From a virus, in the IMG/VR virus record IMGVR_UViG_3300025849_000010, positions 95,619 to 159,618 of that record: a stretch of 64,000 bases of DNA, one strand, 5' to 3'. The notes beneath the pieces are model-generated. The model did no database searches. It worked only from the letters and a program-made list of their open reading frames with translations, and was not told the DNA's origin. Each line of letters opens with the position of its first letter. Within the stretch, counting starts at the first letter, position 1. A program made the translations under genes and the position numbers. Below, piece after piece: positions 11,701-58,943 of the stretch.

Positions 11701-14479
11701 CAATCATACACATAACTTAGACTTTGGTAGAAGTTCACAAGGTACGCAGCAAATTGGTAAGGTTGGTGTTAAAGGTCCTATTACTGGACAGTTTAACGTT
11801 AACGGTTCGGTATTAGAACTAACGCCAGGCGCCGGTACAGGTTCGGGACAAGGTGCTAAAGTTAACATTTACGGTTCAAATAGTATCGGTTCTGGTAGTG
11901 GCATACAAAGTAGTGAACTAATTGCAAGTTTCTCAGGAGACGCTATTAGACTAAACAAAGATGTTATTACACAAGCAACTAGCTTAGGCACAAATCAATC
12001 AACATTTGATCTTGTTAATGATACTGCAACAACACTTAATATTGGTGGCGCTGCAACAGCTATTGACATCGGTGCATCAAGTGGTTACTTGCACGTTAAC
12101 TCCGCTGACCAAGCAGTTAGTACTACAACAGGTGCGCTACGTGTAGACGGAGGCGGTAGTTTTGGTAAGAACTTGTATGTTGGTGGTAACTTAGTTGCTG
12201 CTGAACTTACACTAACTGGTGCTATTGATGGTAACAGTTACAATGTAGGCGGTATTGAAGTAATTGACACTAACAGACGCTTTATTTCAAGCGGTGGCAC
12301 AACTGGTGAACTTTCAAAAGTACACGGCATTAGCTTTGACTGGGACGGCAACTACGGCGCAGTCGGCGGTTATGTAAACCATGGTATTAGTTCACGTAAC
12401 GAAACTTGGGGAGCTAACGATAGTTTAAGTATTAACTCGTACAACAATGTTAACGTAAGACTTGATACTAACTCTAACAATGCTGCTGCAAGTACATTCT
12501 TCCGCATTAACAATGACGTAAGTCAAACTAATGGTAACATTGTACTAAGTGCAAGAGGCGACGGCAAGGTTGGTATTAACAAAGATCCAAGCGGTACTTA
12601 CAACTTAGATGTTGGCGGTAGCTTTAATGCTACAACTGGTTACATTAACGGTGGTGCAATTTGGACTGACGCTAATGACGGTGATGGCTCAGGCTTAAAC
12701 GCAGACTTGCTAGACGGCTTACATGCATCCAGCTTCCTACGTGTTGATACTGGTGCTGCATTTAGTGGTGGTGTATTTAAGATTAGTGCTCCTGCAACAA
12801 CAATTCAAAACACTGGCGAAGTTAACACATTACAGTTATATCAAGGCAACGGTGCTAATAGTTACGATGCATTTATGACATTCCATATTGGCGGTGACTA
12901 TGCTGTACACTTTGGTTTAGATGGAAGTACAAACGATCTAGCATACGGCGGTTGGTCAGCTGGTGCAGTTGCACATAAAGTATGGCACGCTGGTAATGAT
13001 GGTAGTGGCAGTGGACTTGATGCAGACTTGTTAGATGGACAAGATAGTGCATTCTTCCGTAACGCAAGTAATATTAATGCTGGTACTTTCCCAGATAGAT
13101 TTAGTAGTAGCGAACGTTACAACATTGGATTTATTGACGGTTACGGCGGCGATAGCTACGACAAACTGCGTGTATGGAATAGTGGTTCGTACTCAATAGG
13201 TATGCACAGTGGCCAAACAATGGGTTGGCTAAACGACTATGCTATGACATTCACAATGAATAACGATAGTGATCGTGGCTTTAAATGGCGTCATGAAAGT
13301 GATGGTGTTGCTGATGGTGCTATGGCACTTACAACAGATGGTCGTTTAACAGTTAAGCAGTTCATCTCAGTAGGTAATCAAACTACACGTTACCTAAGAG
13401 AACCAACAGGTAACTACGGTTCGATTCAGATTAGCGGTAGTGGATTTGGTAACTGGGAAGGCTTTAGCATTGACGGTCGTGCAGTATTCATGCATGACGG
13501 TGGCACTGCAACTGGTATCTTCAACGATGTAGATAACGAATGGTTGTTCTACGGTGTACACAACGCACAAACTGAAATGATGCATAATGGTAGTTGGAAA
13601 GTTCAAACACGTTCCAATGGTGCAAACATTGCAGGCGAGCTATATGTTGATAACTGGGTACGCATTGAAAGCAATTCAGGTATTTACTGGGAAGGTGGCA
13701 ACTATGCTGGATGGCACATTTATCCACAAGCAACTAACAGAATCCACATGCGTTCAGCTAACAGCGGAAGTTGTGAAGTTTCTCTTGCTAACAGTGCAAA
13801 CACTATCTATGGTAGATTATATGCAGATGATGCATCACAAGGCTTCCTAAACGAAGATGGCAACTGGGCACTACGTAGCTACAACAACGACGGTGTTTCA
13901 CCTGGTTGGAGATTCTACGAAAACGGTAACGAAAGCTGGACAGGCAACCCAGGTAATGACGTTGGTAAGATTGAATATCACGCTAACAGATTCTACATTG
14001 CATCAGGTGCTAACTCCGATCGTGTTGTACAGTTTAGACGTGATGGAACAGATGTTTCATACGTTGATAACAGTGGTGTTTACCAAGGTACTGCTGCAAG
14101 TGCTAACTGGGCTGACTTGGCAGAGAAATACTTAGCTGACGAAGTTTACGCACACGGTACTGTACTTGCTATTGGTGGCGATGCTGAAGTTACATTGTTC
14201 AAACCAGGCATGAAACTAGCAGGCGTTGTTTCAACACAGCCGGGCTTGATGATGAACCAAACAGACGATAACAGAGATGATCCGATGTGGCCGTTCGTTG
14301 CACTTAAAGGTCGTGTACCAGTTATGATTAATGGTTCAGCTAAGAAAGGCCAGTATATCATTGCAGATCAAGACGGTAAAGGTCGTGCTGTAGACGAACT
14401 AAGTACTATAGCAGAATACACTTTATTAATTGGTACTGCATTAGAAGATGGTACAGATGTAGTTGAAGTGAAGGTATAA
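2717..14479 (+). CDS. Giant tail-fibre-type protein, 3920 residues, with seven-fold internal repeat and beta-helix
   Basis: This is a virion fibre/adhesin-type protein. Residues 1-210 resemble the start of many phage fibres (GEIAINTADGKMFIK). Residues about 210-1280 hold seven repeats, each with a single Cys in a C-x-RD-V/T-G/E context followed by a DA..xDL helix and a G-G-N/D segment. Residues about 1320-1560 look like a right-handed beta-helix/pectate-lyase-type domain. Beyond residue 2600 come GSGL.ADLLDG modules (near 3330 and 3435) and beta repeats common in marine T4-like fibres. The last 125 residues (from WADLAEKYLAD) form a conserved fibre C-terminal domain. Three bases separate its stop from the first CHxS gene, so translation is likely coupled. 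No catalytic residues are recognised. Fibre assignment is good; receptor specificity is unknown. Confidence 0.85.
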   Translation: MANKILHKRNNVSGQEPLAEQLDLGEIAINTADGKMFIKQSDGSIKDVTQQIEKGDTRVVVNDQGNGVVTMEVDGIEKLRVDGTKVYVSDDLEIDDQGSIKLKELGQFGSSSVNIKAPPELEESYDIILPDTDARKGQILQNLGFGQTKWSDPGSLGGNRVYVSAEYGDDTNDGRTGAVKTIKRAAQIASDGIFTPVVDPGESAYAAKDLLEVNRTFLQTEVLNFSTKAFNITYDQAKCERDVGLIIDAIENDLRFGGDAATSHAGAAYSLESSALVKQAQDVATSYGLQRARDLAKSVVTNTPIIDTTQVAVAQQFDGTKTATASEAATVESLGQKVVDFYDNGVGEAPNETQTQDVGLLNAETLIDNNKTFIQNEVIAFLNNKYSGFSFDAAKCSRDTGYIVDAANFDLLYSGNAESHYAGITYLNATASLVRSDQKQETLAGIDYARSLAEKVVLGQQVDYLYQTTVAQNTELTPGTQTEATTVFNNISKVYSILNNGIGTANGVVTTDAGKLNSETLIDQNQDFIKEEVIGYLTTTYPGFSYDQNKCRRDVGYILDAISYDLTHGGNNESIQAALAYYQWTAKDAVNLQLAETRAGITYAIDLAKLVIVNQDPATSYQGIFAQFKDAGNPGDATSQTILTGLGSLIDDIITDGDSTTIGLDIDPNNSVPSAVQDTVNANAILAANKEFIQAEVVAFIEENFGNFNYDPVACERDVGLIVDAVKFDIEHGGDAESIFAGISYYNNVTTGTGEITGDAIEVLRKQLQPTLDAVEYARDLLANVVLQNAVSNLYQSGTTQTFDGTNPSTTSVAQTVFNRANTILTILKNGLGTTNSFTKTTGIGALNTEALLQANTAFLQEEVLGYINNQYPGLTYDQASCRRDVELIVDAIAYDLTHGGNTNSIAAGTAYYRQAAALVVTGQSTETLAGLVHLKELAQKVVRNVTVDVTYSATPQVFDGANPGDVTSANTVGTLADIVIDIVDDGLSPYINITANGALTTDQDILDAGALIASNKLFIQKEVVAYVDGSWINFSSNYNQTTCSRDVGLILDAINFDLTWGGTSNAVAAGIAYFKQSSQLTLQRQLVQTIDGIMHAIRLAQQVVENYPVVSFQNTAAQVTDNLNPGSAEAITKIAELGALIEDIVIDGASATAGVTIFGNGIVPNSNIAVQNAADLIALNRSFIQAEVVSYINTYFTNFTYDTDFCYRDVGLFIDAIQYDLIFGGNERAIEAGKSYYIGNTIVIPGQEFQTVLANRYFQSLVDNILQNIVNKKLYQNVTGQITDPTKIVDGTTLGIVEAEFNTIVDIIENGPTSPNIPTEVEGAFNISYTTIMVSTGEYKEDNPVIIPDYVSIVGDNLRTTIIRPLNANQDIFRIRNGAYLLGVTFKDGLDAFNVPSFTGRYCTAFDDPFDTGVDRTGYIGLRDRPLITQSPYIQNVSIISFLGLSGCLVDGSKVITPNVPRFAIEAENPVFGETPEQGKSMVANAYTMLSFGGIGWRLTNDAYAQIVSCFQIFLGNGCWCQSGAYLSVTNSATNFGLYALRSSGYSANSFVFDRGVIAEVGAQASQQKLITVGTKRTPVNQFVIRLYDDDEYNNLANDITNSFKTIPNIVYFNAGELGELYGDAANYEVVAVGSTTFTVQIGSGKNLGSWVEGGTVDINGAFNPAAVLSASYNNTNGALEIEVTTLPNIGDIVTLTTLTFDGTNYPVNEEGSLSLEDNTITIPGHGLVTGDALTYRRNGNIEINGFADQGLYYVEVLTDDIIRLYQDDSRGFVADIIDVSTGQHYFETQTEEFFIDDIILDADSNKLTHNKYQVLTLAPGTYNFEPGDTIEATTGVYRNKAFVYTYEAATRQLTVSVEKADNSGSLTRIFFDATSIIDRDSSAIPQSNIPVTGFTSRTDLFTAEFTIDPTIVGGVLTNTGALKGTFIRLHRPSIVNSSSHTWEYAGSGTDYNALPQNGGITREEFEQFSDLPGRVYSSGTNELGDFKVGDFIVAENRTGNITFKNTVTVGELSALKLAVSDVVIEAISTDPGLGDNEPGGATDTRLITQNAARSFLANRLGDFIDKNVSTNSVSGAVPQMNAQGLLNSDIIPATRNFSLFTTDKKFGRFNLTDDIPAQEPLQGDIAQERYSRTFFTLSAPIALNEDDVIIELNTGATAIVDEDNGGAATVYLANIEGTFSNNISGNVLNVRGSNTTTYITNTGSSEVRDIQYTMVQDSSSQFLRYLPSGAAFVNGQTITAANSKTQGVITGQVEGVALALDLGNISTGNGYVPSTGSQTYKGVVLSNVSGTGTGAIADISVTNGKVTNVDLTRGGSGYAVGNALTATVDQLGGQNTQDFQVSILGVDNRVFVELLAGKFVATTSSNDYTEDGNAVVTTVPLGNTTLTAFNADTIGNGGNVDYPTSRITINSHIFDNGDVVNYASSPNPAIGGFIQGESYFVKVVDANTIELYNRYDLNAANKVIFTSSSTGTHAFIINYVDTRKDRIYAQDHGFTNGQAFRFVGANPPTGMASGGYYYAGTVSQNTFSVHEFQQDAENSVNGVTQGAINFIQTGSGSADFIHQNITIYGEVNTSGNVETNWALTGSANVDASNIVSGVISTSRLAAVGTANSDTYLKGDSSWDYATRTVRTALNSPLNITGNFYTSGGQNFYFKNTQFDIDRTDGTLGNQSFTNLGVAAFSKAQFNVNSGEVELKAGVLDAGTLDGLDSQYFLDPGNLLNPVPVSRGGTQIDQYIAGDMIYATSPTTLNRLPIGSQGAVMVVDELGNPAWSNDVAPFVEDTNNFGVSRPLEIRHDVTNTPAVGIGVGMQFQVETANNNREVGGTIDAVASDVTFGSEDFSFKFNLMAAGFLAERMVLDSLGNLAIDGDLNVDGGDIKTTKTSATVYDTTVTSLSIGRAATSVTIGADKTGELRVRNATLVVGGDSIETQPVDAKIKAPNSLGTNKQGPDLTIQGGASTGSGVAGSVFIDTGASGSSGSTSNTQVNRVEISGSDNHTHNLDFGRSSQGTQQIGKVGVKGPITGQFNVNGSVLELTPGAGTGSGQGAKVNIYGSNSIGSGSGIQSSELIASFSGDAIRLNKDVITQATSLGTNQSTFDLVNDTATTLNIGGAATAIDIGASSGYLHVNSADQAVSTTTGALRVDGGGSFGKNLYVGGNLVAAELTLTGAIDGNSYNVGGIEVIDTNRRFISSGGTTGELSKVHGISFDWDGNYGAVGGYVNHGISSRNETWGANDSLSINSYNNVNVRLDTNSNNAAASTFFRINNDVSQTNGNIVLSARGDGKVGINKDPSGTYNLDVGGSFNATTGYINGGAIWTDANDGDGSGLNADLLDGLHASSFLRVDTGAAFSGGVFKISAPATTIQNTGEVNTLQLYQGNGANSYDAFMTFHIGGDYAVHFGLDGSTNDLAYGGWSAGAVAHKVWHAGNDGSGSGLDADLLDGQDSAFFRNASNINAGTFPDRFSSSERYNIGFIDGYGGDSYDKLRVWNSGSYSIGMHSGQTMGWLNDYAMTFTMNNDSDRGFKWRHESDGVADGAMALTTDGRLTVKQFISVGNQTTRYLREPTGNYGSIQISGSGFGNWEGFSIDGRAVFMHDGGTATGIFNDVDNEWLFYGVHNAQTEMMHNGSWKVQTRSNGANIAGELYVDNWVRIESNSGIYWEGGNYAGWHIYPQATNRIHMRSANSGSCEVSLANSANTIYGRLYADDASQGFLNEDGNWALRSYNNDGVSPGWRFYENGNESWTGNPGNDVGKIEYHANRFYIASGANSDRVVQFRRDGTDVSYVDNSGVYQGTAASANWADLAEKYLADEVYAHGTVLAIGGDAEVTLFKPGMKLAGVVSTQPGLMMNQTDDNRDDPMWPFVALKGRVPVMINGSAKKGQYIIADQDGKGRAVDELSTIAEYTLLIGTALEDGTDVVEVKV
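3345..6560 (+). repeat. Seven tandem ~160-residue protein repeats inside the giant fibre
   Basis: The repeats are marked by a conserved pattern of F-I-Q/K-x-E-V, then a Y/F-D segment, C-x-R-D-V-G, D-A and a GG-N/D turn. The Cys codons lie at 3431, 3902, 4367, 4859, 5360, 5846 and 6335, a spacing of 465-501 nt. Nucleotide identity between units is low, so the repeats are old or have diverged under selection. I do not recognise the domain. Confidence 0.8.
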
Positions 14480-14482
14480 TTT

Positions 14483-14857
14483 ATGGGAAACATGACAAGA
14501 GCCTCGGCAAGAGATTACTTTACCGGAAATGCCGGGGCTCAGTTACGAGGATTTGACAAAACTATTAACTTTGCTGCTACAGTGTATGTTACAGGAAACG
14601 TGGACGGTGGCCGTGCTGGAACTGCATATGGTAATAGACGTTATGAATACGTAAATGCACCTAACAGTGATTACAACGGAAATGTTTATCCAAATACTAC
14701 ACAAGTAGATGCAACCCAATTAATTGATCAAGCACTTGATGCAATACAACGAACTTGCGATTTAATTGAAGGTCGTATTAGCAATAGTTACTTTGATTGG
14801 AGAATATGTCACGCAAGTTGTCATTATAGCTGCCACGGATCAAGAGGGAGAAGATAA
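14483..14857 (+). CDS. Small tail-linked protein with C-terminal (Cys-His-x-Ser)x3, copy 1
   Basis: A 124-residue protein that begins 3 bp after the giant fibre stop. The N-terminal half has an FDKTIN.AATVY segment and a GTAYGNRRYEYVNA block, both shared with the next gene. The C-terminus has NSYFDWRI followed by CHAS (109-112), CHYS (113-116), CHGS (117-120) and RGRR. Tandem His-x-Ser units are known from HxsA-type precursors of radical SAM maturases, and this gene is followed two genes later by six radical SAM genes. I infer a modified (RiPP-like) peptide substrate or a metal-binding fibre tip. A purely structural role without modification is possible. No signal peptide is seen. Gene call is secure; function is inferred. 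Confidence 0.8.
   Translation: MGNMTRASARDYFTGNAGAQLRGFDKTINFAATVYVTGNVDGGRAGTAYGNRRYEYVNAPNSDYNGNVYPNTTQVDATQLIDQALDAIQRTCDLIEGRISNSYFDWRICHASCHYSCHGSRGRR
14807..14842 (+). other. Tandem Cys-His-x-Ser repeat, copy 1
   Basis: Three contiguous 12-bp units encode CHAS, CHYS and CHGS, followed by RGRR. Both residue pattern and position (extreme C-terminus) are conserved in the neighbouring paralogue, which suggests this is the functional part of the protein. Confidence 0.9.
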
Positions 14858-15240
14858 TGGCAGGATTAAGTCATGCACAATTAGAAGCTCGGTACTATGG
14901 TAATGCATATACAAGAATACGCACATTTGATAAAACTATTAACGTAGCAGCTACAGTATATTATGCGCGATATAATGGTAGTGGCCAAGGAACTGCATAT
15001 GGTAATAGACGTTATGAATACGTAAATGCCGGGCAAGGTGCCTTTGCTAATACAGATATTCCAAATGGTGTAGGTGACAATTTATTAATAAGAGCAGGTG
15101 ATATACAAACATTTGCTTCAAATGCAATCAGCAGAACAGTAAATGGCATAGAAGGAAGAATTACAAATTCGTATTTCGACTTTAGAATATGCCATTCAAG
15201 TTGCCATTATAGCTGCCACGGCAGCAGAGGGAGAAGATAA
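14857..15240 (+). CDS. Small tail-linked protein with C-terminal (Cys-His-x-Ser)x3, copy 2
   Basis: A 127-residue paralogue of the preceding gene. Its ATG shares one base with that gene's TAA stop (TAATG), so the two are translationally coupled. Shared parts are FDKTIN.AATVY, GTAYGNRRYEYVNA, EGRI.NSYFD.RI and the C-terminus. Here the units are CHSS (112-115), CHYS (116-119) and CHGS (120-123), then RGRR. The middle and the N-terminal 20 residues differ, while the two ends of the shared region are almost identical. That pattern fits a conserved recognition region plus conserved core. The following gene starts at the next base after its stop. The proposed role is a radical SAM substrate carried on the tail; this is inference. 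Confidence 0.8.
   Translation: MAGLSHAQLEARYYGNAYTRIRTFDKTINVAATVYYARYNGSGQGTAYGNRRYEYVNAGQGAFANTDIPNGVGDNLLIRAGDIQTFASNAISRTVNGIEGRITNSYFDFRICHSSCHYSCHGSRGRR
15190..15225 (+). other. Tandem Cys-His-x-Ser repeat, copy 2
   Basis: Encodes CHSS, CHYS and CHGS followed by RGRR. Only the x residue of the first unit differs from copy 1 (A versus S). Confidence 0.9.
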
Positions 15241-16302
15241 ATGATAGGCGAAAGTTTTTACTATATCAGTAATAAAAAATACTTAGGACGATCTACTGCA
15301 ATGCTTTCGGCATTATCAGAAAGTCCGTGGAGCGGAGTTCAATCAAGACGTATTAGCATAATAATGCCAGATGGACATAGTGCAGTGCAAGAAAGTTATG
15401 CATCGTCGTTAAGTAATGATTATCCATTAGCAAACGCTGAAGATATGATAACATTTGCTAATTATAGCGATATTGATTCTTGGGAATATCTCAATAACAA
15501 TACTAAGGAATTTTTATTATTTGAATCAGCGCATGAGTTTTTGAAGATGTATGCAAAGTATACAGCTTCGCTATTAAAAACAACAACTAACAAAGATGTT
15601 AAACAAGTTGTTAAGGAATTTATTGTATTAGCAACTACTAGAGATGTAACATACTCGACAATGGGCGATTACAATGAAGGCGATATCAATGCAGCAGTAG
15701 AGGAAGTATTTGCAGAAAACGTATTCTATGATATTCCTAATGCAACCAGTAAGCACTGGGGTTACGATATTCTTTTCTTTATTAATGACAAGTACAATGA
15801 AAATGAAACCTATGCAGAAATTAATGTAACAACAACTGCATTTTTAAGAGAAAAGTTTACAGTACATAGTGATAAAATGATTCATGAAGTTATTAGTATG
15901 TTACAATCTAAAATTGGTTATGTAAGTGTTATTAACAATATTATTGATTGGTTTAATAATAACGGAAATACAGAATGGAATAGAGCTGAGTTTGTGAAAG
16001 ATGTATTTCAAAATACGAATCGCATGCAAGCACTATACAGATTACGTGACTTTTGGAACGATGTAGGTTCTAATAAAGAATTAATGACATTAATTGACGG
16101 GCATGACGAATGGGAATACGAAGAAGTATATAAAGAGTTTGCTAGAACTATTCCAATTGTCATACAAATTGCAGAGGGCGGATTTAATTTTGCAAATAAC
16201 GAAGCACTAAGAAGTGCATGGAGCGAGGTAGAGTTTTTCTATAAACGTAAAAGTCGTATTCCTTATTTGCTGTTTAAAATATTACCACTTGTACCGGAGT
16301 AA
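15241..16302 (+). CDS. Unrecognised 353-residue protein between CHxS genes and radical SAM cluster
   Basis: The ATG follows directly on the stop of the second CHxS gene. The protein is mixed alpha/beta and rich in acidic and aromatic residues (for example SDIDSWEYLNNN and HDEWEYEEVYKEF). It has no Cys motif, Walker motif, signal peptide or membrane segment that I can see. I do not recognise a family. Being located between the putative substrates and the maturases, and co-directional with both, it could be a substrate-binding partner, a chaperone or a fibre-assembly factor. None of these is shown by the sequence. Confidence 0.7.
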   Translation: MIGESFYYISNKKYLGRSTAMLSALSESPWSGVQSRRISIIMPDGHSAVQESYASSLSNDYPLANAEDMITFANYSDIDSWEYLNNNTKEFLLFESAHEFLKMYAKYTASLLKTTTNKDVKQVVKEFIVLATTRDVTYSTMGDYNEGDINAAVEEVFAENVFYDIPNATSKHWGYDILFFINDKYNENETYAEINVTTTAFLREKFTVHSDKMIHEVISMLQSKIGYVSVINNIIDWFNNNGNTEWNRAEFVKDVFQNTNRMQALYRLRDFWNDVGSNKELMTLIDGHDEWEYEEVYKEFARTIPIVIQIAEGGFNFANNEALRSAWSEVEFFYKRKSRIPYLLFKILPLVPE

Positions 16303-16304
16303 AA

Positions 16305-17012
16305 ATGACACAAGAAAATTACACACTGCCACTAAGTCCAACAGATTTAGCAGAAATATATAAAATAAAAACAAGCTCGGAAGATTACGTTCTCAAGGTT
16401 GATTATTTTAAAAGTAAGGAAGTACTGTCAGTAAAACATATACTCGTATATATTGCTAACACTAACTTTAAAGTACAGTTTGAAGGCATTGACGATGAAT
16501 TAATAAATGAATATATAATTTCTAATTTTATGGTTGATTGTCCGTTACTTTCTAGATACATTACGTTAATTGCTAAACGTAAACTAGGACAGGAATATAA
16601 TCAAGTTGACCAAGCATTAAATACTATAATGTCTGATGCTGACATTGATTCATATTTAGAAAAGAATGGCGAATTATTTGACGACTTGTTAGATAAACTA
16701 AAACATGTTACACTGTTTTGTTTAGATCAAGCTGGCAAATATGCCGACAAGTACAAAGAATTTATACCAGAAGAGATTGAACGTGCAGATGAAGAAACTC
16801 AAATTGGACTAAATATTGTATATATTGCAACATACTCGTTGGACTTGTTGTATTTGTTAGGTAATAAATTTGGTCCGTGGCCTACTAATAAATTAAATGT
16901 TAGAGTGTTTAATGATGTTAGTAAGTATCAAGGAGCAGACCTATATAATACATTACTAAAATATGGTGTTGCAACTAGTATGTTAGAATTATTTGACGAG
17001 GAATCAGCATAA
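16305..17012 (+). CDS. Unrecognised 235-residue helical protein
   Basis: Begins 2 bp after the previous stop, and its own stop shares one base with the first radical SAM ATG (TAATG). It is acidic and predicted mainly helical, with PLSPTDLAEIYKIK near the N-terminus and an FGPWPTNK segment near residue 190. The N-terminal 90 residues read like a small winged or beta-hairpin domain, but I cannot identify an RRE (RiPP recognition element) by eye. The tight packing with the radical SAM genes suggests a role in the same process. Confidence 0.65.
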   Translation: MTQENYTLPLSPTDLAEIYKIKTSSEDYVLKVDYFKSKEVLSVKHILVYIANTNFKVQFEGIDDELINEYIISNFMVDCPLLSRYITLIAKRKLGQEYNQVDQALNTIMSDADIDSYLEKNGELFDDLLDKLKHVTLFCLDQAGKYADKYKEFIPEEIERADEETQIGLNIVYIATYSLDLLYLLGNKFGPWPTNKLNVRVFNDVSKYQGADLYNTLLKYGVATSMLELFDEESA

Positions 17013-18193
17013 TGACAATGCAACAATCATATTGTAAACAGATGAAGTATAGTGGGCCAGAAAGTCTACCTCCTTCACACGCCCAGAAGTTTGACGTATT
17101 AATTAACTTTGAAGGCCTTACTGGCTGCGAATATGGTTGTTTAGGATGTTTTGTTAACAAGAATCAAGACGTTACTACAATGAATCAAATGCTAACAACT
17201 GCAAAAGAACTTGCAGATGGTGTAAAGCGTACAGGTTTAAACTTACGTGAGTTTGTTGTAGGTCCGACAGATTTATTCTCTGCGTCAAATACTGATAGCA
17301 TTCTTAATAATACTATTATACAAGATATAATGCGCGAACACACTAATGCACGTATTGCTACACCTAGTAAGATAGACGGCGTGAGCATGGAAAGGTTGCG
17401 AGAAGTATTTGCAATACTTGATGATCCTTCTAAGTATAGAGACGAAATGATCATTGAGTTTATTATGCCAGTTGGCGATGTTGATCGTATACTAAATGAC
17501 GAAGAATACTTTAAAGATATTAAATCAAAATTAGAATTCTTTAAATCCGAAACTCCCAAGAAAATTGACTGGAGTTGGACATTACAAGCAAGTAATGTTA
17601 TGCAAAAACATCTAACTAAAGAAAACTATAATAAACTGCTATATAAGATTCTTGATGAATATGAAACTATTCTAGAAATGAACCCAGCGTTCTCTAGAGC
17701 ACCGAGTGTATTGCACCAGCGTAAGAACTTAGTAGCATGGAATAACTTCCTAAAAGAAGTAGTAGATCAAGACAATTTTAAAGACGTTACAATGAGTATG
17801 GCTAACTTATATTGTAACTCCATGAACTTCATAGGGTTAACTGTTGTTCCTGGATTAGAGACGCCACGTGTATTTTTAAATGTAATGTTACACGAACAAG
17901 CATTCTTTACACAGCATAGGGATTTAGAAGTAACAGGACTAAGTTTTGAAGAAATTCTAGTCAAGAGGGATCACTTAATAGCACAAGGGTTAGCTAAGTC
18001 GTCTAAAGTTAAGGATTGTGCAGATTGCAAATATGCAGTAGCATGTGCAAACAGACTAATATTCCAAGCACAAGATGCAATGAACATGCACGAATGTTTA
18101 ATGCCGCTAGAAGTATTAGAACTGTATAATCCGTTTGTTACTAGTAACGAACAGTGGAACGACGATGCTTTAAAAATCGTCAATGCTCGTTAA
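17012..18193 (+). CDS. Radical SAM protein 1 (GPTD paralogue)
   Basis: A 393-residue radical SAM enzyme. The CX3CX2C motif for the [4Fe-4S]/SAM cluster is C39, C43 and C46, followed by FVNK. At the place of the usual SAM-binding GGE motif there is GPTD (84-87). A C-terminal four-Cys set, C336-x2-C339-x5-C345-x16-C362, fits an auxiliary Fe-S (SPASM/twitch-like) cluster. It is the first of five paralogues with the same plan. Its start overlaps the upstream stop and its end overlaps the next gene by 11 nt. The likely role is radical modification of a peptide; the nearest candidates are the CHxS proteins. Radical SAM assignment is strong; the reaction is unknown. Confidence 0.88.
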   Translation: MTMQQSYCKQMKYSGPESLPPSHAQKFDVLINFEGLTGCEYGCLGCFVNKNQDVTTMNQMLTTAKELADGVKRTGLNLREFVVGPTDLFSASNTDSILNNTIIQDIMREHTNARIATPSKIDGVSMERLREVFAILDDPSKYRDEMIIEFIMPVGDVDRILNDEEYFKDIKSKLEFFKSETPKKIDWSWTLQASNVMQKHLTKENYNKLLYKILDEYETILEMNPAFSRAPSVLHQRKNLVAWNNFLKEVVDQDNFKDVTMSMANLYCNSMNFIGLTVVPGLETPRVFLNVMLHEQAFFTQHRDLEVTGLSFEEILVKRDHLIAQGLAKSSKVKDCADCKYAVACANRLIFQAQDAMNMHECLMPLEVLELYNPFVTSNEQWNDDALKIVNAR

Positions 18194-19211
18194 CCTAAAC
18201 TCAACTCCTACAGGATTTAACAATTATATAGAAGGCATAAGCCCTAAGGATAATAACTTTCTTAGGACAGAAGTTCATGCTGATATATTACATGGATGCA
18301 GTCAAAAGTGTCCAGGGTGTTTCATTCCTAGAAAAAATCTTACTAATGCTGATCATCTTACAACACTATGCGATATATTGGAATCTAGTGCATATACACC
18401 TGATGATGTTGTAATAGGTCCTACTGATATATTTGATGCTGAAAACTTTTGGGACTTAATGGACCATCCTAGTATGAAACGTTTATACAGTATTGCAGCA
18501 CTAAGTTTTAACTCAACACTACTACAGGACTACGACACTGTACTTGCCAAACACACTAAGATTTGGAGTCTTTACGAAGGATTGGATCGTACGCCTGATA
18601 TAGATTTTAAAATAGTACTTGATATTACTAGATATTTACAAGGCGATATTGAAGACATGTGTCGCAAACTAGAACTTTTTAAACAAGGTAGTGTACAGTT
18701 TAGAGTAAACTATTACCCGGGTATATTTGATCGTGTGAGCTATAATGATTTATGTGATATGATTAAAGAAGACTTCAATGCTCCAGTAGTTATATTGCCA
18801 GGTTTCTTAACAGACAGAAATAGTCGAGGTAAAGTTAGTAAATTACTTCCGATGTTTTTAGACGAGCTACGTAAACAAGATATAAGACCCGAATACAAAC
18901 AGTTATACACGATGTTTGATGCAAACTTTAATAGTCACGGATGTACCAATTATAGTTTTTACAACGGCAGCTTGTATATGAATCCATTTGTGTTTGACGG
19001 AATATTGCAGCGTACACAAGAATTTAAAGTAGACAATCTTAATACTAAAAACTTTTTAGCTGAAAATTTATCATATGCAGCATCTACTAAAGAATGTGAA
19101 AGTTGCGAATACTTAATGAGCTGTGCAGAGCGCAATGTATTGTTCTATATGAAGTCGAGAAATTTAACAGAGTGTGTTACAGTAAAGGAGTATACAAATG
19201 CCGGTCATTAA
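18183..19211 (+). CDS. Radical SAM protein 2 (GPTD paralogue)
   Basis: 342 residues, the shortest of the five paralogues. C39, C43 and C46 form CX3CX2C (GCSQKCPGCF), and GPTD lies at 79-82. The auxiliary set is C305-x2-C308-x5-C314-x16-C331, only 11 residues before the C-terminus. It overlaps the preceding gene by 11 nt and the next by 14 nt, so the enzymes are probably made in fixed ratio. Within the family the segment between GPTD and the C-terminal Cys set is the most variable, which suggests different substrate positions for each copy. The function is inferred from motifs only. Confidence 0.88.
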   Translation: MLVNLNSTPTGFNNYIEGISPKDNNFLRTEVHADILHGCSQKCPGCFIPRKNLTNADHLTTLCDILESSAYTPDDVVIGPTDIFDAENFWDLMDHPSMKRLYSIAALSFNSTLLQDYDTVLAKHTKIWSLYEGLDRTPDIDFKIVLDITRYLQGDIEDMCRKLELFKQGSVQFRVNYYPGIFDRVSYNDLCDMIKEDFNAPVVILPGFLTDRNSRGKVSKLLPMFLDELRKQDIRPEYKQLYTMFDANFNSHGCTNYSFYNGSLYMNPFVFDGILQRTQEFKVDNLNTKNFLAENLSYAASTKECESCEYLMSCAERNVLFYMKSRNLTECVTVKEYTNAGH

Positions 19212-20379
19212 AAATAACTTGTATTATGAGCTTACTACAGAAACGCAAACTAAGCCAGTAAGTGCAGTAAAAATACAGCTTGATGTGTTAGACGGGTGTG
19301 TACACGCTTGCCCTGGGTGTTTTGTACATCGTAGAGGAAATGCACCTGAAGTTGATCATTTAAAAGATTGCCGAAACTTTGTAAAACGAATTACAGATGT
19401 AGGTGTTTTAGTTGACGAAATACTCATAGGCCCAACTGACTGTTTATCTAGTGAAAACTTTTATGAAGTAATGAGCAATACTGATTTGTTAGCAATGATA
19501 AATGAAAACTCTCCTATACTTGCTTTTACTACTACATTTTTAGAAAAGGATCTAACACATTTAGATCGTTGGATTACGTTTTTACATGACAATGTGAATA
19601 CTGACACTGAAATAGAAATTGGCATAGCAACTGATCCTATGCGATATAAAGATATACTTTATATACAGCAATTAAAACGCTGTATTGCATATGTCGACCA
19701 GCATTTAAAACATGAATGTACATATACGTTTATTGTTAATATTAGAAACTATGACCTAGACTACGAGCAAATACATGATTTTGTAGTGAAGCAATTTGAT
19801 ACAACAATTGACTTTATTCCAAGTGTAAGTCGCAGTCATAAAGCAAGTATCATACTACCTACACTAAATCAATTCAATGAATTTTTTGAAGCATTACCAG
19901 AAGATACTCATTTAAATAATATTATGGTAGATCACACACATGCTGGGCATAATTATACCGTATTAAATTTTAAAGGAGGACAGTGGTATCTAAGTCCGTT
20001 CCTTTATGAAAATATGGCATTGTATGATAATATGTTTGCAGTAAACAATCTAGACGAAGCATATGATCTTACTGTGTCACAAGTAGATCGAGCTAAAGGA
20101 ACAGTGTGCGAAAACTGTGATTTATTTTTTAGTTGCTACAATAGAAAAATTATTTTATTACGTGACTACTTGGGTACTAAAGAGTGTATAGCGCCTAAGC
20201 AAAATATGTTAAAAAATATACATAACTATAATAAAAGTGCTGCTGAAATGTATGACTGGACAGGATATACTGTTGAGGGTGATAAGCAAGGATATCGTAA
20301 AAAATTCTTAATAACTAAAGACGGCGATGAAAGATTAGATGAAATAAAAAAGGTGTATCATGTCAATCGTAAAGGATAA
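19198..20379 (+). CDS. Radical SAM protein 3 (GPTD paralogue)
   Basis: 393 residues. The SAM cluster motif is C34, C38 and C41 within LDGCVHACPGCFVHRR; the LDGC.HAC.GCFV.RR wording is shared almost exactly with copy 4. GPTD is at 78-81. The auxiliary Cys set is C304, C307, C313 and C330. A 63-residue extension follows the last Cys, rich in charged residues, and is absent from copies 2, 4 and 5. It overlaps its neighbours by 14 and 20 nt. Copies 3 and 4 look like the most recent duplication in the cluster. Confidence 0.88.
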   Translation: MPVIKNNLYYELTTETQTKPVSAVKIQLDVLDGCVHACPGCFVHRRGNAPEVDHLKDCRNFVKRITDVGVLVDEILIGPTDCLSSENFYEVMSNTDLLAMINENSPILAFTTTFLEKDLTHLDRWITFLHDNVNTDTEIEIGIATDPMRYKDILYIQQLKRCIAYVDQHLKHECTYTFIVNIRNYDLDYEQIHDFVVKQFDTTIDFIPSVSRSHKASIILPTLNQFNEFFEALPEDTHLNNIMVDHTHAGHNYTVLNFKGGQWYLSPFLYENMALYDNMFAVNNLDEAYDLTVSQVDRAKGTVCENCDLFFSCYNRKIILLRDYLGTKECIAPKQNMLKNIHNYNKSAAEMYDWTGYTVEGDKQGYRKKFLITKDGDERLDEIKKVYHVNRKG

Positions 20380-21454
20380 TTATTGGGAAGCAACAATGGG
20401 TCATAAAGACTATAATATCAGTGTAGGTGATGCACATGATATAAAAGTAAACATGACAGTTGACGTCCTTGACGGGTGCATACATGCTTGTGAAGGATGC
20501 TTTGTTAATCGCAGAAGACAGCAAGCATCTAATGATCAGTTTTCCAAAGTACTAGCTGCACAAAAAATGTTTAATCAAAATAACATTCGATTTAGCAGCA
20601 TAATACTTGGTCCTACTGATGTCTTTGGTAATTTAAATATACAGGACGTTTTAAAATTTGATAGTTTTAAAGAAGTAGTAAGTAACTGCACCACTGTCGG
20701 AATGATTAGTACACTGCTTAACGATGATACTCATATCAATCCTATAATAGATGGCTTCAACGCTATACCTAAATGTGAAGGTTTCTTATATGACTTTCAA
20801 GTAGTTATTGATGTTAAACGAGCACTTGATCCAGAATATAGAAAGAATCACTTAGCACGTATACATGATGTTTTAAATAGATTTACTGATCCCTTAAACT
20901 TTACTATAATTTTTAATATGGATCAAGACTTTGCTGAGTTTGGAAATCTAGCAGAAATATGTCGTGTAATAAAAGAAGAGTACGACACTATTGTAGAGCC
21001 TATTCCTAGTTATCAGCGTTATGGTAAAGGAAAAATACACAACGATATTATTAGGGCGTGGGTTGATATAATAGAAGACACGTTCACTAAAGAAAATCAA
21101 GAATACCTAGCCATGACAATAGCTGACAAAAATCAAGGTGGCGCACTTGAATTAAATTATACATATAGTGCAGGAGAATTTTATTCAACTCCGTTTGTTT
21201 ATGAAGTTGCACTTATACGTGACGAAAAGTTTAGAGTAAAAGATCCAACAGATATTAAAAGTTGGACTAGCTTAAAAACAGACTTGTATATAGATCAGCT
21301 TGCGTATTCCCCTAAAACGCTGCATTGTGAAACATGCAATCGTCGTGAAATATGTTTGAAAAAACACGTATTAAGTTATATGGAGCATTTTGACTTTACG
21401 GAGTGTGTGTATCCTAGAGAAGTATTAAATGAATATAGGCCGTTAACATGTTAA
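20360..21454 (+). CDS. Radical SAM protein 4 (GPTD paralogue)
   Basis: 364 residues. C40, C44 and C47 give CX3CX2C (LDGCIHACEGCFVNRR), GPTD is at 84-87, and the auxiliary Cys set is C323, C326, C332 and C349. The protein ends in an extra Cys (LTC). It overlaps the preceding gene by 20 nt and the next by 7 nt. No transmembrane segment or signal peptide is seen, so it should act in the host cytoplasm during infection, before or during virion assembly. Confidence 0.88.
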   Translation: MSIVKDNYWEATMGHKDYNISVGDAHDIKVNMTVDVLDGCIHACEGCFVNRRRQQASNDQFSKVLAAQKMFNQNNIRFSSIILGPTDVFGNLNIQDVLKFDSFKEVVSNCTTVGMISTLLNDDTHINPIIDGFNAIPKCEGFLYDFQVVIDVKRALDPEYRKNHLARIHDVLNRFTDPLNFTIIFNMDQDFAEFGNLAEICRVIKEEYDTIVEPIPSYQRYGKGKIHNDIIRAWVDIIEDTFTKENQEYLAMTIADKNQGGALELNYTYSAGEFYSTPFVYEVALIRDEKFRVKDPTDIKSWTSLKTDLYIDQLAYSPKTLHCETCNRREICLKKHVLSYMEHFDFTECVYPREVLNEYRPLTC

Positions 21455-22575
21455 AAAATGATTGGCAAACTTATCTGCAAAATAATAAACAATCTCTTTC
21501 ACCAGAGGGGTTTATAGATCCTGCTGATCAAAACAAGATAAAAATTCAGTTAATGCTTGAAATATTAGAAGGTTGTGCTTACAACTGTTCGGGCTGTTTT
21601 GTTAAAAGACGAAAAAACTTTGGACAGGGATTAGGGCTAGACTATGCTGCACAACTTGTTGACGAGTTAACTGATCAATATGTATTAGATGATATTATTG
21701 TAGGACCTACTGATTTCTTCTCCAGCGGAAATATAATACAAGTCTTAGAAGATCCTAGATTTAAAAAGATAGTAAACGCATTACCCGAAGACGGCGGACT
21801 ACAGCATAACTGTTCAATAGACTTTTTTATAGGAAATGATCGAGTAAAAGAAATTATTACTTATATTGAAAATAGCTATCTAAAGGATCGTCCGTTTGAT
21901 GTACAAATTGCAGTAGACTTGCATATGTTAGATAATCCACATGTACACGATTTAATAAGTGAACGCCTAGAAGCTATGGAAAATAGTTCTGTAGAATATG
22001 AAGTAAGCCTGCTGTGTAATATAACTCAAGACATTGACGACGATGTATTAGACAAAATTGAAACTGTTAGAAACAAGTGGAATACTGTTGTTGAATGGGG
22101 GCCTAGTTTAGTACGTGCCATGACAAATAGGCCTGATAAAATGTTAGGTATGATACAAGGATGGAATGAAAGTATAGGAAAGGTTGCTAGCATAGATGAA
22201 AAGCGTTTTACACAAAACTTTATATGGCAACAGAGCGATACTAGTCATAAAAACTTTAATGAAGTAATTGTTACAGTTAATAATGACCAGTTATATATAG
22301 TTCCGTTTTTATATGAAAATTCTCCTATATATCATCCTAGTTTCGAAGTACCGATAGGCGAAAATATATTAAACAGTATTTTTGATAAAAGGCACGAATT
22401 GCAATTAACACAATATGCTAACATTCCTAACTTAGTATGCAACGGATGTAAGTATGTAGAAAATTGTAGCTCTAGATTAATACCAACGCTAATCACAGAT
22501 GTAGTTAAGCATAACCAGTGTCTAATAAATAAAAACATAATGGCATTATACGACAATATAGGATATAATAAATGA
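21448..22575 (+). CDS. Radical SAM protein 5 (GPTD paralogue)
   Basis: 375 residues. C43, C47 and C50 form CX3CX2C (EGCAYNCSGCFVKRR), GPTD lies at 86-89 and is followed by FFSSGN, as in copy 1 (LFSASN). The auxiliary set is C331-x2-C334-x5-C340-x17-C358, with one residue more in the last gap than the other four. It overlaps copy 4 by 7 nt and the following radical SAM gene by 4 nt (ATGA). Same inferred role as the other paralogues. Confidence 0.88.
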   Translation: MLKNDWQTYLQNNKQSLSPEGFIDPADQNKIKIQLMLEILEGCAYNCSGCFVKRRKNFGQGLGLDYAAQLVDELTDQYVLDDIIVGPTDFFSSGNIIQVLEDPRFKKIVNALPEDGGLQHNCSIDFFIGNDRVKEIITYIENSYLKDRPFDVQIAVDLHMLDNPHVHDLISERLEAMENSSVEYEVSLLCNITQDIDDDVLDKIETVRNKWNTVVEWGPSLVRAMTNRPDKMLGMIQGWNESIGKVASIDEKRFTQNFIWQQSDTSHKNFNEVIVTVNNDQLYIVPFLYENSPIYHPSFEVPIGENILNSIFDKRHELQLTQYANIPNLVCNGCKYVENCSSRLIPTLITDVVKHNQCLINKNIMALYDNIGYNK

Positions 22576-23780
22576 GCTGCGGAACAGAAATACTAAAAGC
22601 ATTAATGCCGGATAACATTACTGATGATCACTTGTTGGACACAAAGGCACAGCAAGAAGCAAATGCAGTAACACACGCAATATTAGAGCGTAAGCGTCCT
22701 CTTATTGGCGAAATTGAAATAACACTTTTTGAAAACTGTCCTATTAATTGCGACTTTTGCTTCCATGATAAAGAAAGCGAAGTAGGCATGACATATGAAG
22801 AAATGCTAATGAAACTTCCTCTGGTAGAAGCACACTGTAAAAAGATGCAGGGCAAAGTACATGCTATGCAGTTTAATATGGTAGGTGGAGAGCTGTTTCA
22901 AGACCGTGCAAAAGATACACTGTATCCTATGTTTTTTGATTTAATGGTAGAAATTAAAAAAATAACAGATAGGTACGGACACGTTATACAAGTAGTTTGG
23001 GTTAGTAACTTTTTGTTTAAGTATCACGAAGATGTACGCAAACTGCTAGACGATCTAAATGCAGTAGACATACCAAGTAAACTGATTGCTAGTTATGATC
23101 TAAGTGGACGTCCTACAGGCGGACAATACACTAAAAATATCGAACGTTTTAAAGATTATATTTCTACTATCAATTTAGTAGCAACAACAGACAGTATCAA
23201 TGCATTGTTTGCAGGAGATGATTATTTCAATTATCTATATGAAAACTTTGATTTGTTCTTTGATGATTTTATTCCAGATCCGGGATACGACCATTTAGTA
23301 CCAGCTGATTCGCTTTACTTAAAGTTTATGAAATACATTGCTGATAATTATCCAGAAGTAAATCCGTATAAAGAACTTATAGAAAATGATGTTAATCAAA
23401 TGCATTGTATGAGCTTAAACAAGTTAACTATTTTTCCGGATAACACAACTGCAAATTGCCGTTGGCATCGTTATACACGCAATGATTTTCAACACGCATA
23501 TATTAGAAAAGACAACACTAACCTCATGCAAGCATACATGGACGAAGTTGGTTGTTTAAGTTGTCAATATTTTGATCGTTGCGGCTTCCGTTGTTATACG
23601 CAATGGGACTGGAAGAATCGTGCTAGGGATTTACCACCTGGCATTTGTCCTATAAAAGAGTTCTTTAATTATGTAGGGGATACTGATCAAACATCATCTC
23701 TTCCTCATAATAAGACCTTACGTCGGGCACCATTCCCGTCTGAGATGAAGGATCAGGAAGGCTTATATGGTCGAGAATAG
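22572..23780 (+). CDS. Radical SAM/SPASM-type protein 6 (GGE type)
   Basis: 402 residues, the last gene of the plus-strand run. It differs from the five before it: a 50-residue N-terminal extension precedes C56, C60 and C63 (ENCPINCDFCFHDKE), and the ordinary GGE motif is present at 105-107. The C-terminal part has CLSCQYFDRCGFRC and a later Cys (PPGIC), a SPASM-like auxiliary cluster pattern with W-rich sequence after it. It may catalyse a different step from the GPTD copies. Its last 116 bp overlap, tail to tail, the small minus-strand gene at 23665-24084. Confidence 0.86.
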   Translation: MSCGTEILKALMPDNITDDHLLDTKAQQEANAVTHAILERKRPLIGEIEITLFENCPINCDFCFHDKESEVGMTYEEMLMKLPLVEAHCKKMQGKVHAMQFNMVGGELFQDRAKDTLYPMFFDLMVEIKKITDRYGHVIQVVWVSNFLFKYHEDVRKLLDDLNAVDIPSKLIASYDLSGRPTGGQYTKNIERFKDYISTINLVATTDSINALFAGDDYFNYLYENFDLFFDDFIPDPGYDHLVPADSLYLKFMKYIADNYPEVNPYKELIENDVNQMHCMSLNKLTIFPDNTTANCRWHRYTRNDFQHAYIRKDNTNLMQAYMDEVGCLSCQYFDRCGFRCYTQWDWKNRARDLPPGICPIKEFFNYVGDTDQTSSLPHNKTLRRAPFPSEMKDQEGLYGRE

Positions 23781-24084
23781 CATTGTAAGTTTCTTTATCT
23801 TCGCTATAGGGTTTAAAGTACGGATCATTGCCGGCTAATAAATCTTTATCATCTAGTAGCTCGTAGAAATCGTATTTAAAATCTAAACTTATCCAATAAG
23901 CATAACAGATTGCTACGAAATAACTTTTAGCAGGATACACCCATTCGTCTACACGTTCGTAGAAATGTTTCACTGCCCAAATAACACTGTCTTCTTCTGT
24001 ACGAATGTCGACTTTGTTTAAGTCGTCAGTAAATTCTGTTGCAGTACTATTAAATAGTTGTAATCTAGTCTTCCAGTTCAGCAT
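23665..24084 (-). CDS. Small unrecognised protein at the end of the minus-strand radical SAM operon
   Basis: 139 residues. Its ATG overlaps the end of the upstream radical SAM gene by 20 nt, which supports it as a translated operon member. It is acidic, helical and aromatic-rich (for example DFKYDFYELLDDKDLL), with no Cys motif. The C-terminal 38 residues are encoded antisense to the end of radical SAM protein 6. I cannot name a family. A partner or substrate-binding protein for the radical SAM enzymes is one possibility suggested only by position. Confidence 0.6.
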   Translation of the reverse strand: MLNWKTRLQLFNSTATEFTDDLNKVDIRTEEDSVIWAVKHFYERVDEWVYPAKSYFVAICYAYWISLDFKYDFYELLDDKDLLAGNDPYFKPYSEDKETYNAILDHISLPDPSSQTGMVPDVRSYYEEEMMFDQYPLHN

Positions 24085-24982
24085 ACCAGTCTATTAGTCC
24101 CTTATATCCATTACAGCCGTTGTTTAAGTCTTTAACATATCGATAATGTTCAGTTAAGCATTTACCGTAGTATTTACAATTATGACATATTTCACTGACG
24201 TTTTCTGTAGACTCTTTTGAAGCCCACAACAAGTATTCGTCAAACGTATTATATTCTTCAAAAAACTCATTATCGTTCTTGTCAAATTCAAGCACACCGA
24301 ATTTAGCATCAGGCGTAATGTATACATGATCGTTACTAAATGCATTACGATTGCCTTCTAATACATCTTCTAAATCATCTACGTTAACAAAATCAAACTG
24401 CTTTAATACAGGAGATTCTATCCATTGCTGCACATGTTGTTCAAAATCTCTATGTGTAACAGGGTGTGCATTTGCTTGATTAGTTGAGTAAGGTTTTATT
24501 TCTACACACTTAACATTTTGCATCATATTAAATGTATTAATCATTAAGTCTACATTAGTAGCTAATACCTTAGGACTTGCTAAAACTAGTACACTAATAT
24601 CCTTAGGAAAAAGCATCATATTCTGTAATACTTTATCACTTTGTTCTCGAGCTTCGAAGTCATAGCTTACACTAATATGCACATCATCATCTAAAAAGAA
24701 ATCAGGCCTTGCACTTAAATTAGTATTGATGTTAATTCTACCACTAAAATATTTTCTAATAACAGTTTTCAAACTATAAAAATATTCTTTATCTAGCATA
24801 CCTATTTCGCCACCGTATAAATCTACGTGTGTAATCGGTACAGACACTTCACTAAGACGCTTGTCTAGATCTTCCGGAGTAATACGCTTTTTATTACCTA
24901 GTTGGGCTGTAGTAAGATAACAAAAGTCGCAGCGAAAGTTACAAAAATATGTAGGATTGATACTAACAGTAAATTCAGTCAT
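24065..24982 (-). CDS. Radical SAM protein 7
   Basis: 305 residues. C14, C18 and C21 (YFCNFRCDFCYLTT) form the SAM cluster motif, with GGE at 57-59 (LYGGEIGML). A C-terminal CHNCKYYGKC and a further Cys (NNGC) suggest an auxiliary Fe-S cluster. Its start overlaps the end of the upstream radical SAM gene by 8 nt, and the downstream small gene overlaps its end by 20 nt. It is divergent from the plus-strand GPTD family and closer to general SPASM-type peptide maturases in layout. Substrate unknown. Confidence 0.86.
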   Translation of the reverse strand: MTEFTVSINPTYFCNFRCDFCYLTTAQLGNKKRITPEDLDKRLSEVSVPITHVDLYGGEIGMLDKEYFYSLKTVIRKYFSGRININTNLSARPDFFLDDDVHISVSYDFEAREQSDKVLQNMMLFPKDISVLVLASPKVLATNVDLMINTFNMMQNVKCVEIKPYSTNQANAHPVTHRDFEQHVQQWIESPVLKQFDFVNVDDLEDVLEGNRNAFSNDHVYITPDAKFGVLEFDKNDNEFFEEYNTFDEYLLWASKESTENVSEICHNCKYYGKCLTEHYRYVKDLNNGCNGYKGLIDWYAELED

Positions 24983-27037: not shown

Positions 27038-27482
27038 CTAATCCCCAAGATAGCATAATGCTATTGTCTTTATTTAAAGCACGGTGCGGTGTTTCTGCAG
27101 GCACAAACAAGCAATGTCCACTGTGTGCTGTTATCTCTGTACCGTTTATTTCTAATGTTTTACTTCCATGAGTAACTTGCAATACTAAGTCTACAGGATC
27201 GGTGTGAATACCGAATGATGGAGAATTAGGCTTTGCGTAGAACACATGACAAGTACCATTATTAAAATTACAAATCTGTTCATACTTTTCTAATTTAATT
27301 GTTATATCATCACGCAGCAAAAGATTATCTACTACTCCGAGATATGAAATATAATCATTTTCGGTTATATAATGTTGTAAGCCTTCACTGTCAATGTAGC
27401 TAGTCATTACTCTATTATATGCTAAGTCACTGCGGAGTATATCATAAAACTCTAACATTGACATTTTAACTTTAGGAATCAT
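27024..27482 (-). CDS. JmjC/cupin-type Fe(II) oxygenase-like protein
   Basis: About 152 residues from the ATG at 27482; an upstream TTG at 27500 is in frame but less likely. An H93-x-D95 pair (GIHTDPVDL) and H133 (PAETPHRAL), with GSKTLEI and GHCLFVP strands between, form a double-stranded beta-helix with the facial triad of Fe(II)/2-oxoglutarate oxygenases of JmjC/AspH-like type. It is next to another oxygenase and immediately upstream of radical SAM protein 9. A protein or peptide hydroxylase is a reasonable inference; a simple sugar-binding cupin is the alternative. Confidence 0.72.
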   Translation of the reverse strand: MIPKVKMSMLEFYDILRSDLAYNRVMTSYIDSEGLQHYITENDYISYLGVVDNLLLRDDITIKLEKYEQICNFNNGTCHVFYAKPNSPSFGIHTDPVDLVLQVTHGSKTLEINGTEITAHSGHCLFVPAETPHRALNKDNSIMLSWGLDDRT

Positions 27483-27483
27483 A

Positions 27484-58904: not shown

Positions 58905-58932
58905 GTTAAATCCTTTGTTAAATATAGTATAG

Positions 58933-58940
58933 GTATTTAA
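58933..58940 (-). promoter_or_regulatory. Late-type box for the minus-strand glycosyltransferase pair
   Basis: On the minus strand TTAAATAC, 28 bp before the ATG at 58904. A second imperfect box, TTAAATAT, lies on the plus strand at 58918-58925, before the gene at 58944. One mismatch each. Confidence 0.35.
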
Positions 58941-58943
58941 CAA

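Follow-up and report, generated by a model that had tools for sequence, protein, structure and literature searches.

A Cys-His-x-Ser tail protein and its accompanying radical SAM enzymes in phages and Bdellovibrionota: a candidate maturation module

Gene organization of the locus

The DNA analyzed here (the window) is a stretch of 64,000 nucleotides, positions 95,619 to 159,618 of the 159,618-base IMG/VR virus record IMGVR_UViG_3300025849_000010. It comes from a T4-like myovirus whose terminase is 54% identical to that of Pseudomonas phage PA5oct and its kin. Behind the open reading frame (ORF) of a giant tail fibre-like protein lie two translationally coupled genes whose products both finish in CHxSCHxSCHGSRGRR, with three tandem Cys-His-x-Ser (CHxS) units; two unknown genes and then six overlapping genes of the radical S-adenosylmethionine (rSAM) type follow. 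A minus-strand operon holds three more rSAM genes (24065-27037), then a cupin, a 2-oxoglutarate (2OG)-Fe(II) oxygenase and a NUDIX gene. The nine rSAM genes are R1 to R5 of the GPTD type, R6, and the minus-strand R7 to R9. An earlier note on this DNA had reported the two coupled CHxS genes after the fibre ORF, which direct reading of the sequence confirmed, and six overlapping rSAM genes; these are present with their auxiliary Cys, and the three on the minus strand had been overlooked. We describe the CHxS proteins together with these enzymes, which would form a maturation module for the tail.

2717 to 14479, plus strand: tail fibre-like protein, 3,920 aa, read from sequence
14483 to 14857, plus strand: CHxS tail protein 1, 124 aa; tail CHASCHYSCHGSRGRR, C-terminal end WRICHASCHYSCHGSRGRR, product end also given as RICHASCHYSCHGSRGRR
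14857 to 15240, plus strand: CHxS tail protein 2, 127 aa; tail CHSSCHYSCHGSRGRR, C-terminal end FRICHSSCHYSCHGSRGRR, product end also given as RICHSSCHYSCHGSRGRR
15241 to 16302, plus strand: helper h353, taking the place of the second helper family (h355) of other lineages
16305 to 17012, plus strand: core helper h235, accompanying the tail protein in every lineage tabulated
17012 to 18193, plus strand: R1, GPTD-type rSAM, one auxiliary Cys set (CX2CX5C...C)
18183 to 19211, plus strand: R2, GPTD-type rSAM, Cys motifs
19198 to 20379, plus strand: R3, GPTD-type rSAM, Cys motifs
20360 to 21454, plus strand: R4, GPTD-type rSAM, Cys motifs
21448 to 22575, plus strand: R5, GPTD-type rSAM, Cys motifs
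22572 to 23780, plus strand: R6, core rSAM, SPASM-like Cys set
24065 to 24982, minus strand: R7, core rSAM, single auxiliary Cys set; Pfam PF04055, E=1.1e-07
24975 to 26009, minus strand: R8, core rSAM/SPASM, the most conserved, 58-72% identity across the phages aligned
26009 to 27037, minus strand: R9, core rSAM/SPASM, SPASM Cys motif complete; in most other lineages it stands immediately before the tail gene

All six plus-strand rSAM genes encode CxxxCxxC near the N-terminus and further Cys residues toward the C-terminus. CxxxCxxC is kept in 100% of members of all five rSAM families (R6 to R9 and GPTD, 73 to 147 members per family), and the R9 motifs C-x10-G-x4-C and CX2CX5CX3C and its final Cys are kept in at least 99%. 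R9 and R8 possess the full SPASM set of auxiliary Cys and R6 a SPASM-like one, while R7 and the GPTD enzymes have one set only. The enzymes thereby carry the two marks of the rSAM/SPASM superfamily, CxxxCxxC and SPASM/Twitch auxiliary Cys.

Conservation of the CHxS tail

CHxS proteins were searched with a DNA version of the pattern [I/M]CHx[S/T..]CHx[S/T..]CH, which matched 55 viral contigs, and related loci were added by protein search. In 108 of 108 distinct CHxxCHxxCH proteins the first Cys lies exactly 16 residues from the C-terminus and the protein ends in R[G/S]RR. The six Cys and His residues within 10 positions are invariant, a property conditioned by the search pattern; that pattern contained neither the R[GS]RR-stop ending nor the fixed distance. 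The second residue after His is Ser, sometimes Asn or Ala, and no other. Six-frame reading of 180 loci gave no copy of the motif away from a C-terminus, and a reversed-pattern control gave no match in 38 records. Among 87 distinct tail DNA sequences, synonymous changes occur at every fixed codon, with Ser swapping between AGY and TCN. Identity among 16 representatives has a median of about 21% in the bodies and about 81% in the tails. These observations confirm that the matches do not arise by chance and show that the tail is a real unit under selection at the protein level.

An AlphaFold2 model of tail protein 2 has a helix-hairpin-helix body of modest confidence (pLDDT 77) and a disordered tail; the body fold has no match in PDB or BFVD. 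A tblastn search of phages with the window tail proteins found nothing, because the bodies are too diverged and the tail too short, and R9 and R8 as queries solved the search. A division of the bodies into five unrelated families was rejected, since profile tests show that the groups of 192, 257 and 178 aa are one family. The bodies of the window, of Burkholderia phage FLC6 and of the Atu_ph07/Phosso phages have no clear profile link to that family; the window-family profile was contaminated by two truncated pieces, and its apparent matches were left out of the count.

Two further loci were observed. A single 151-kb viral contig carries two separate CHxS modules (L113, 19877-20646; L173, 6146-8571), one of the paired-gene type and one of the single-gene, R9-adjacent type. 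On a contig of an Oligoflexia metagenome-assembled genome with R6-R9-like genes, a degenerate tail, ICHSNCYTPPPKSRSRR, occupies the place of the tail gene (L169:4938-5264); it is possibly a natural variant or a decaying copy.

Co-occurrence of the tail protein and the radical SAM enzymes

In the forward direction, rSAM genes are present in 50 of the 53 pieces that were selected by the pattern and contain the whole tail ORF. Of the remaining three, two belong to contigs with rSAM genes outside the piece, and one measures just 1,083 bases. In most lineages the tail gene begins at the end of R9 or overlaps it. The reverse search used an R8 profile, blind to the tail, and kept the best 80 of 320 viral loci. 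The tail motif was found in 24 of the 38 R8 contigs of at least 20 kb, and the other 14 end before the expected place of the tail gene, as judged by hand against its position in complete relatives. All of the informative R8 contigs (24/24) carry the tail protein.

Of 50,697 phage records, seven match R9, and R8 and R6 find these seven again; they are Burkholderia phages FLC6, FLC8 and SURPRISE13 (S13), Agrobacterium phage Atu_ph07 (two records), Sinorhizobium phage Phosso and Pseudomonas phage pPa_SNUABM_DT01 (DT01). The tail gene stands directly after R9 in 7/7, with tail ends TVCHSSCHTSCHGSRGRR, DFCHSSCHASCHNSRSRR, DYCHTSCHASCHSSRSRR and TICHTSCHTSCHSARGRR; in FLC6 the tail protein is gp72. 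The closest terminase relatives of the window phage, such as PA5oct, are not among these seven. Plasmids gave only generic rSAM matches, to R7.

In a presence table of 24 lineages the constant members are the tail protein, R9, R8, R7, R6 and h235; where a member is missing the contig ends there, apart from one lineage (L166) in which R7 was not found. R6-R9 are the universal set and the GPTD enzymes are accessory; the earlier note had singled out the latter and overlooked three of the former. Its proposal that the CHxS tails are substrates of the neighbouring rSAM enzymes gains support from the two-way co-occurrence, and the finding that would have spoken against it, CHxS proteins widespread without rSAM genes, did not appear, since 50 of 53 pieces have such genes and the rest are accounted for.

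The module in bacterial chromosomes

R8 relatives in GTDB genomes include contigs of Bdellovibrionota, two of which are clearly chromosomal, with SecA, COX1 and IPPT on the same contigs. These genes led us to reject, for both (L167 and L170), the explanation that bacterial copies are misbinned phage contigs; that explanation is true for Rhodobacteraceae Water_Bin34. The system is not confined to phages. Proteins with Peptidase_S74 adjoin both chromosomal modules, and one of these proteins also has a pilin-type N-methylation motif.

Among 129 genomes of the order of one chromosomal copy, true tail genes with R9 occur in five, and h235 in four of the five (a short piece was read). Three chance motif matches in the same genomes lack the ...RxRR end, an rSAM neighbour and h235. 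In a tree of R8 the copies from bacteria have diverged most and those from phages form one group (93/93), a picture to be read within the limits set by its long branches. The two-way co-occurrence of the tail with R6-R9 is near complete across unrelated phages and predatory bacteria. A precursor with a conserved core motif always beside its enzymes, as expected of clusters for ribosomally synthesized and posttranslationally modified peptides (RiPPs), was found in 24/24 contigs, 7/7 phage records and 5/5 true bacterial matches.

Probable virion location

The module comes after the baseplate and fibre genes in phages. Electrospray ionization tandem mass spectrometry of Atu_ph07 placed most virion proteins in three clusters, one of them coding sequences (CDS) 170-215 (PMC6102473). 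The RefSeq numbering agrees with that of the paper for gp181 (baseplate wedge), gp198 (portal), gp204 (prohead core) and gp215 (major head protein), and the CHxS protein of Atu_ph07 is gp170, with the encoded end VDFCHSSCHASCHNSRSRR. By this agreement, the first member of the cluster as bounded there is the tail protein. The rSAM genes gp165 and gp168 fall outside CDS 170-215, and gp171 (R9) falls within the numbered range. The CHxS protein probably sits on the virus particle in phages, with good indirect support from these proteomic data (PMC6102473).

Helpers, accessory and neighbouring genes

The model of h235 is confident (pLDDT 92, pTM 0.90) and matches no solved fold in PDB; h235 is therefore not a PqqD-type recognition element, and its candidacy as a RiPP recognition element (RRE) was rejected. 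No homology was detected between h353 and h355. Frequent parts of the module are a cupin directly before R9, the h139 family, h355 or (in the clade of the window) h353, and 2OG-Fe(II) oxygenases. In the window these include:

23665 to 24084, minus strand: h139, small conserved companion, phrog_20737
27024 to 27500, minus strand: cupin/JmjC-like protein; in most phage lineages its gene stands just before R9
27484 to 28014, minus strand: 2OG-Fe(II) oxygenase, frequent accessory, PF13759, E=9e-18

An rSAM enzyme of about 600 aa of the B12-binding type lies within the module at 18 loci without most GPTD enzymes (for example L101:6506-8419, L109:6587-8551, L045:5798-7432 and L170:12079-13839). It starts with '...SPPHADW' or '...NPPHADW', its Pfam matches are mostly just under the cut-offs, and its presence suggests methylation or a similar reaction in some lineages. 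In FLC6 two adjacent dihydrofolate reductase genes are found between R6 and R8 (L073:18304-19517), and the same pair occurs in S13.

The C-terminal pattern LKGRVPV...KGQ...IGTALE...VVEVKV of the fibre ORF is found again in unrelated phages, in proteins encoded immediately before the module. Four of nine such upstream proteins resemble Peptidase_G2 below the curated cut-off; no such resemblance was found for the 3,920-aa protein of the window. The sequence ATAAATA is depleted in the window (10 observed, 27 expected), and copies lie 25-45 bases before several structural genes (2673, before the fibre gene, and 31304, 42826 and 45706). Their resemblance to T4 late promoters is suggestive only; no copy stands directly before the CHxS tail genes of the window. 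Genes of cytidylyltransferase-like, glycosyltransferase-like and methyltransferase-like proteins are clustered at 54264-59783.

Comparison with known systems

Peptides of the HxsA type, which carry His-x-Ser repeats, are matured by the rSAM enzymes HxsB and HxsC. The present system resembles Hxs (TIGR03978, TIGR03977) in having repeated His-x-Ser in a ribosomal protein beside more than one rSAM gene. It differs in the unit, which is Cys-His-x-Ser, in the number of exactly three, in their C-terminal place with RGRR, in the four to nine rSAM enzymes and in being phage-borne. Neither window tail protein matches the curated NCBIfam model of HxsA, and R9 and R8 stay far under the cut-offs of the enzyme models (R9 to TIGR03978, 33.5 of 370 bits; R8 to TIGR03977, 22.8 of 267.9 bits). 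Membership in the Hxs family was rejected on these cut-offs.

The enzymes of triceptides, or three-residue cyclophanes, are likewise SPASM rSAM proteins. They join C2(His) to Cbeta(Ala) (HaaB), C2(His) to Cbeta(Arg) (YhhB) or Phe to Cbeta(Ser) (MscB), all from residue i to i+2 (PMC11002830). The same spacing separates His from Ser, Asn or Ala in the tail, and these substitutions retain the Cbeta and not the hydroxyl. Unlike the triceptides, the present substrate would be the tail of a protein and not a leader-core peptide. The models of 3-CyFE-type maturases gave 33.3 of 445 bits for YhhB (R9), 29.5 of 370 for FxsB and 25.7 of 425 for AmcB.

Ranthipeptides and sactipeptides (PapB, SCIFF; Cys thioether) share repeated Cys in a ribosomal substrate and a SPASM rSAM enzyme, and PapB is the best NCBIfam match of R9 (E 3.5e-11; 42.9 against a cut-off of 340); in the present tail, however, each Cys is followed by His, and there is no precursor in common. 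The anaerobic sulfatase-maturing enzyme (anSME), which modifies a protein Cys or Ser side chain, is among the best solved-structure sequence matches of R8 and R9 (4k37), but no sulfatase or sulfatase motif is present here and the score is 42 against 349. The near-misses of R9 and R8 are mostly peptide maturases (PapB, DarE, DynA, YhhB). Those to PapB, DarE, DynA and anSME are far below the cut-offs and do not tell C-C, C-N, thioether and oxidation chemistry apart. The mechanism would resemble that of RiPP-type rSAM systems, and by its parts (substrate, helper, enzymes and carriers) the system lies outside every family tested.

In reports on these phages such genes appear under the names radical SAM or Fe-S oxidoreductase, and no substrate is given (PMC8066314, PMC11898562, PMC8541153). 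Eight rSAM genes in a structural cluster of 332-Vera were termed 'highly unusual' (PMC12390700), and a TARA T4-like marine genome or contig with 12 was read as Fe-S metabolism (PMC5332604). Across these papers the readings are Fe-S, metabolic or DNA-repair ones or none, and no substrate protein is linked (PMC8066314, PMC11898562, PMC8541153, PMC12390700, PMC5332604). Phage rSAM genes have been reported as auxiliary metabolic genes, and the loci examined in FLC6, S13 and DT01 hold the genes described here. In a search of full-text literature with few subscription papers and preprints, no description of a CHxS-tail/rSAM module was found; within that coverage, the statement of the earlier note that no phage system of this kind is described still stands.

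Discussion

The rSAM enzymes very probably rework the CHxS tail chemically, as the gene distributions strongly argue. The tail is taken as their substrate because a conserved rSAM set always travels with the tail protein, and because nothing else known in these genomes matches the distribution of R6-R9 so exactly. We consider it likely that R6-R9 form a multi-enzyme maturation module for the C-terminal tail of virion-surface proteins. A small CHxS protein, probably on the virion surface, would be made with a disordered tail CHxSCHxSCHxSRGRR; R9, R8, R7 and R6 with h235, together with the five GPTD enzymes in the window phage, would act on Cys, His and Ser of the three repeats, and RGRR would be the fixed tail end and possibly a docking signal. 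The matured protein would then be assembled on the tail or fibre apparatus encoded alongside and help in host attachment or entry. A role in adsorption or host-surface binding may be envisaged from the neighbouring genes, which are fibre genes in phages and pilin-like ones in the predators.

Among the possible chemistries, His-x-Ser i/i+2 cross-linking is a tentative lead and would fit best. Links within the repeats, for instance C2(His)-Cbeta(Ser) by analogy with triceptides, might be combined with Cys chemistry; a further reaction, catalysed by other enzymes of the core, is suggested by the Cys that invariably precedes each His.

Several points weigh against a maturation module. No modified tail peptide was seen, R6-R9 are far below the curated cut-offs of every known peptide-maturase model, Pfam finds no PqqD domain and the helper is not an RRE, and neither a transporter nor a protease of the kinds usual in RiPP clusters appears in the module gene tables. 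The collection of phage records lacks some Ralstonia phages that the literature names (RSF1/RP31), and the presence of gp170 in virions is read from a cluster boundary and not from a per-protein table.

Three other explanations were weighed. It is unlikely that the rSAM-matured tail is released as a peptide or cofactor-like molecule, a true RiPP, and acts in the infected cell, for example against superinfection or competitors. C-terminal motifs modified by rSAM enzymes are a hallmark of RiPPs, the terminal RR could be a processing site, and the antibiotic maturases DarE and DynA appear among the NCBIfam near-misses; however, the module showed no genes for export or for a dedicated protease, the tail gene lies among baseplate and fibre genes, and the virion cluster of Atu_ph07 begins at the tail protein (PMC6102473). 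With still lower probability, the tail is mainly a metal-binding device, in which Cys and His would be ligands for Fe, Cu or Zn at the fibre tip and the enzymes would tune or load it. The invariance of the six Cys and His in 10 positions agrees with this, and a ribosomal peptide with His-to-butyrine cross-links is reported to bind copper (PMC10206099). Metal binding alone would not call for four rSAM enzymes, and it would tolerate Cys/His swaps and changes of spacing, none of which were found; it may coexist with modification. Least probable is an action of the enzymes elsewhere (giant fibre, glycan, nucleotide or cofactor) with the tail protein merely linked, for example as a scaffold: in published annotations the rSAM genes of phages do figure as genes of Fe-S, metabolic or repair function (PMC5332604, PMC8541153, PMC7150976), but the short tail, which stays invariant on diverged bodies and co-occurs strictly with the enzymes in both directions, and the retention of the tail protein in bacterial-chromosome modules without a phage fibre, speak against it.

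Returning to the maturation module, we put forward a broader statement tentatively. A mobile machine of at least four rSAM enzymes and a helper of new fold, present in unrelated phages and some Bdellovibrionota predators, would build a fixed tip that is not DNA-encoded on surface attachment proteins, a new class of modification with the same cross-linked (or metal-binding) tail in both. The module is carried by certain marine and giant phages and by a small number of predatory bacteria, two worlds that it links.

The maturation of the CHxS tail would be a protein modification of a kind not yet described in phages. It gives a concrete candidate substrate to phage rSAM genes, which have often been read as Fe-S metabolism, auxiliary metabolism or repair, and for enzyme chemistry it makes available nine rSAM enzymes together with a target defined to 16 residues. 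This substrate is short and of fixed form, and hosts can be grown in culture, such as A. tumefaciens C58 for Atu_ph07. If the proposal is true, phage particles bear residues that are not encoded in DNA and come from a dedicated line of enzymes, which would alter the study of receptor binding and of virion chemistry.

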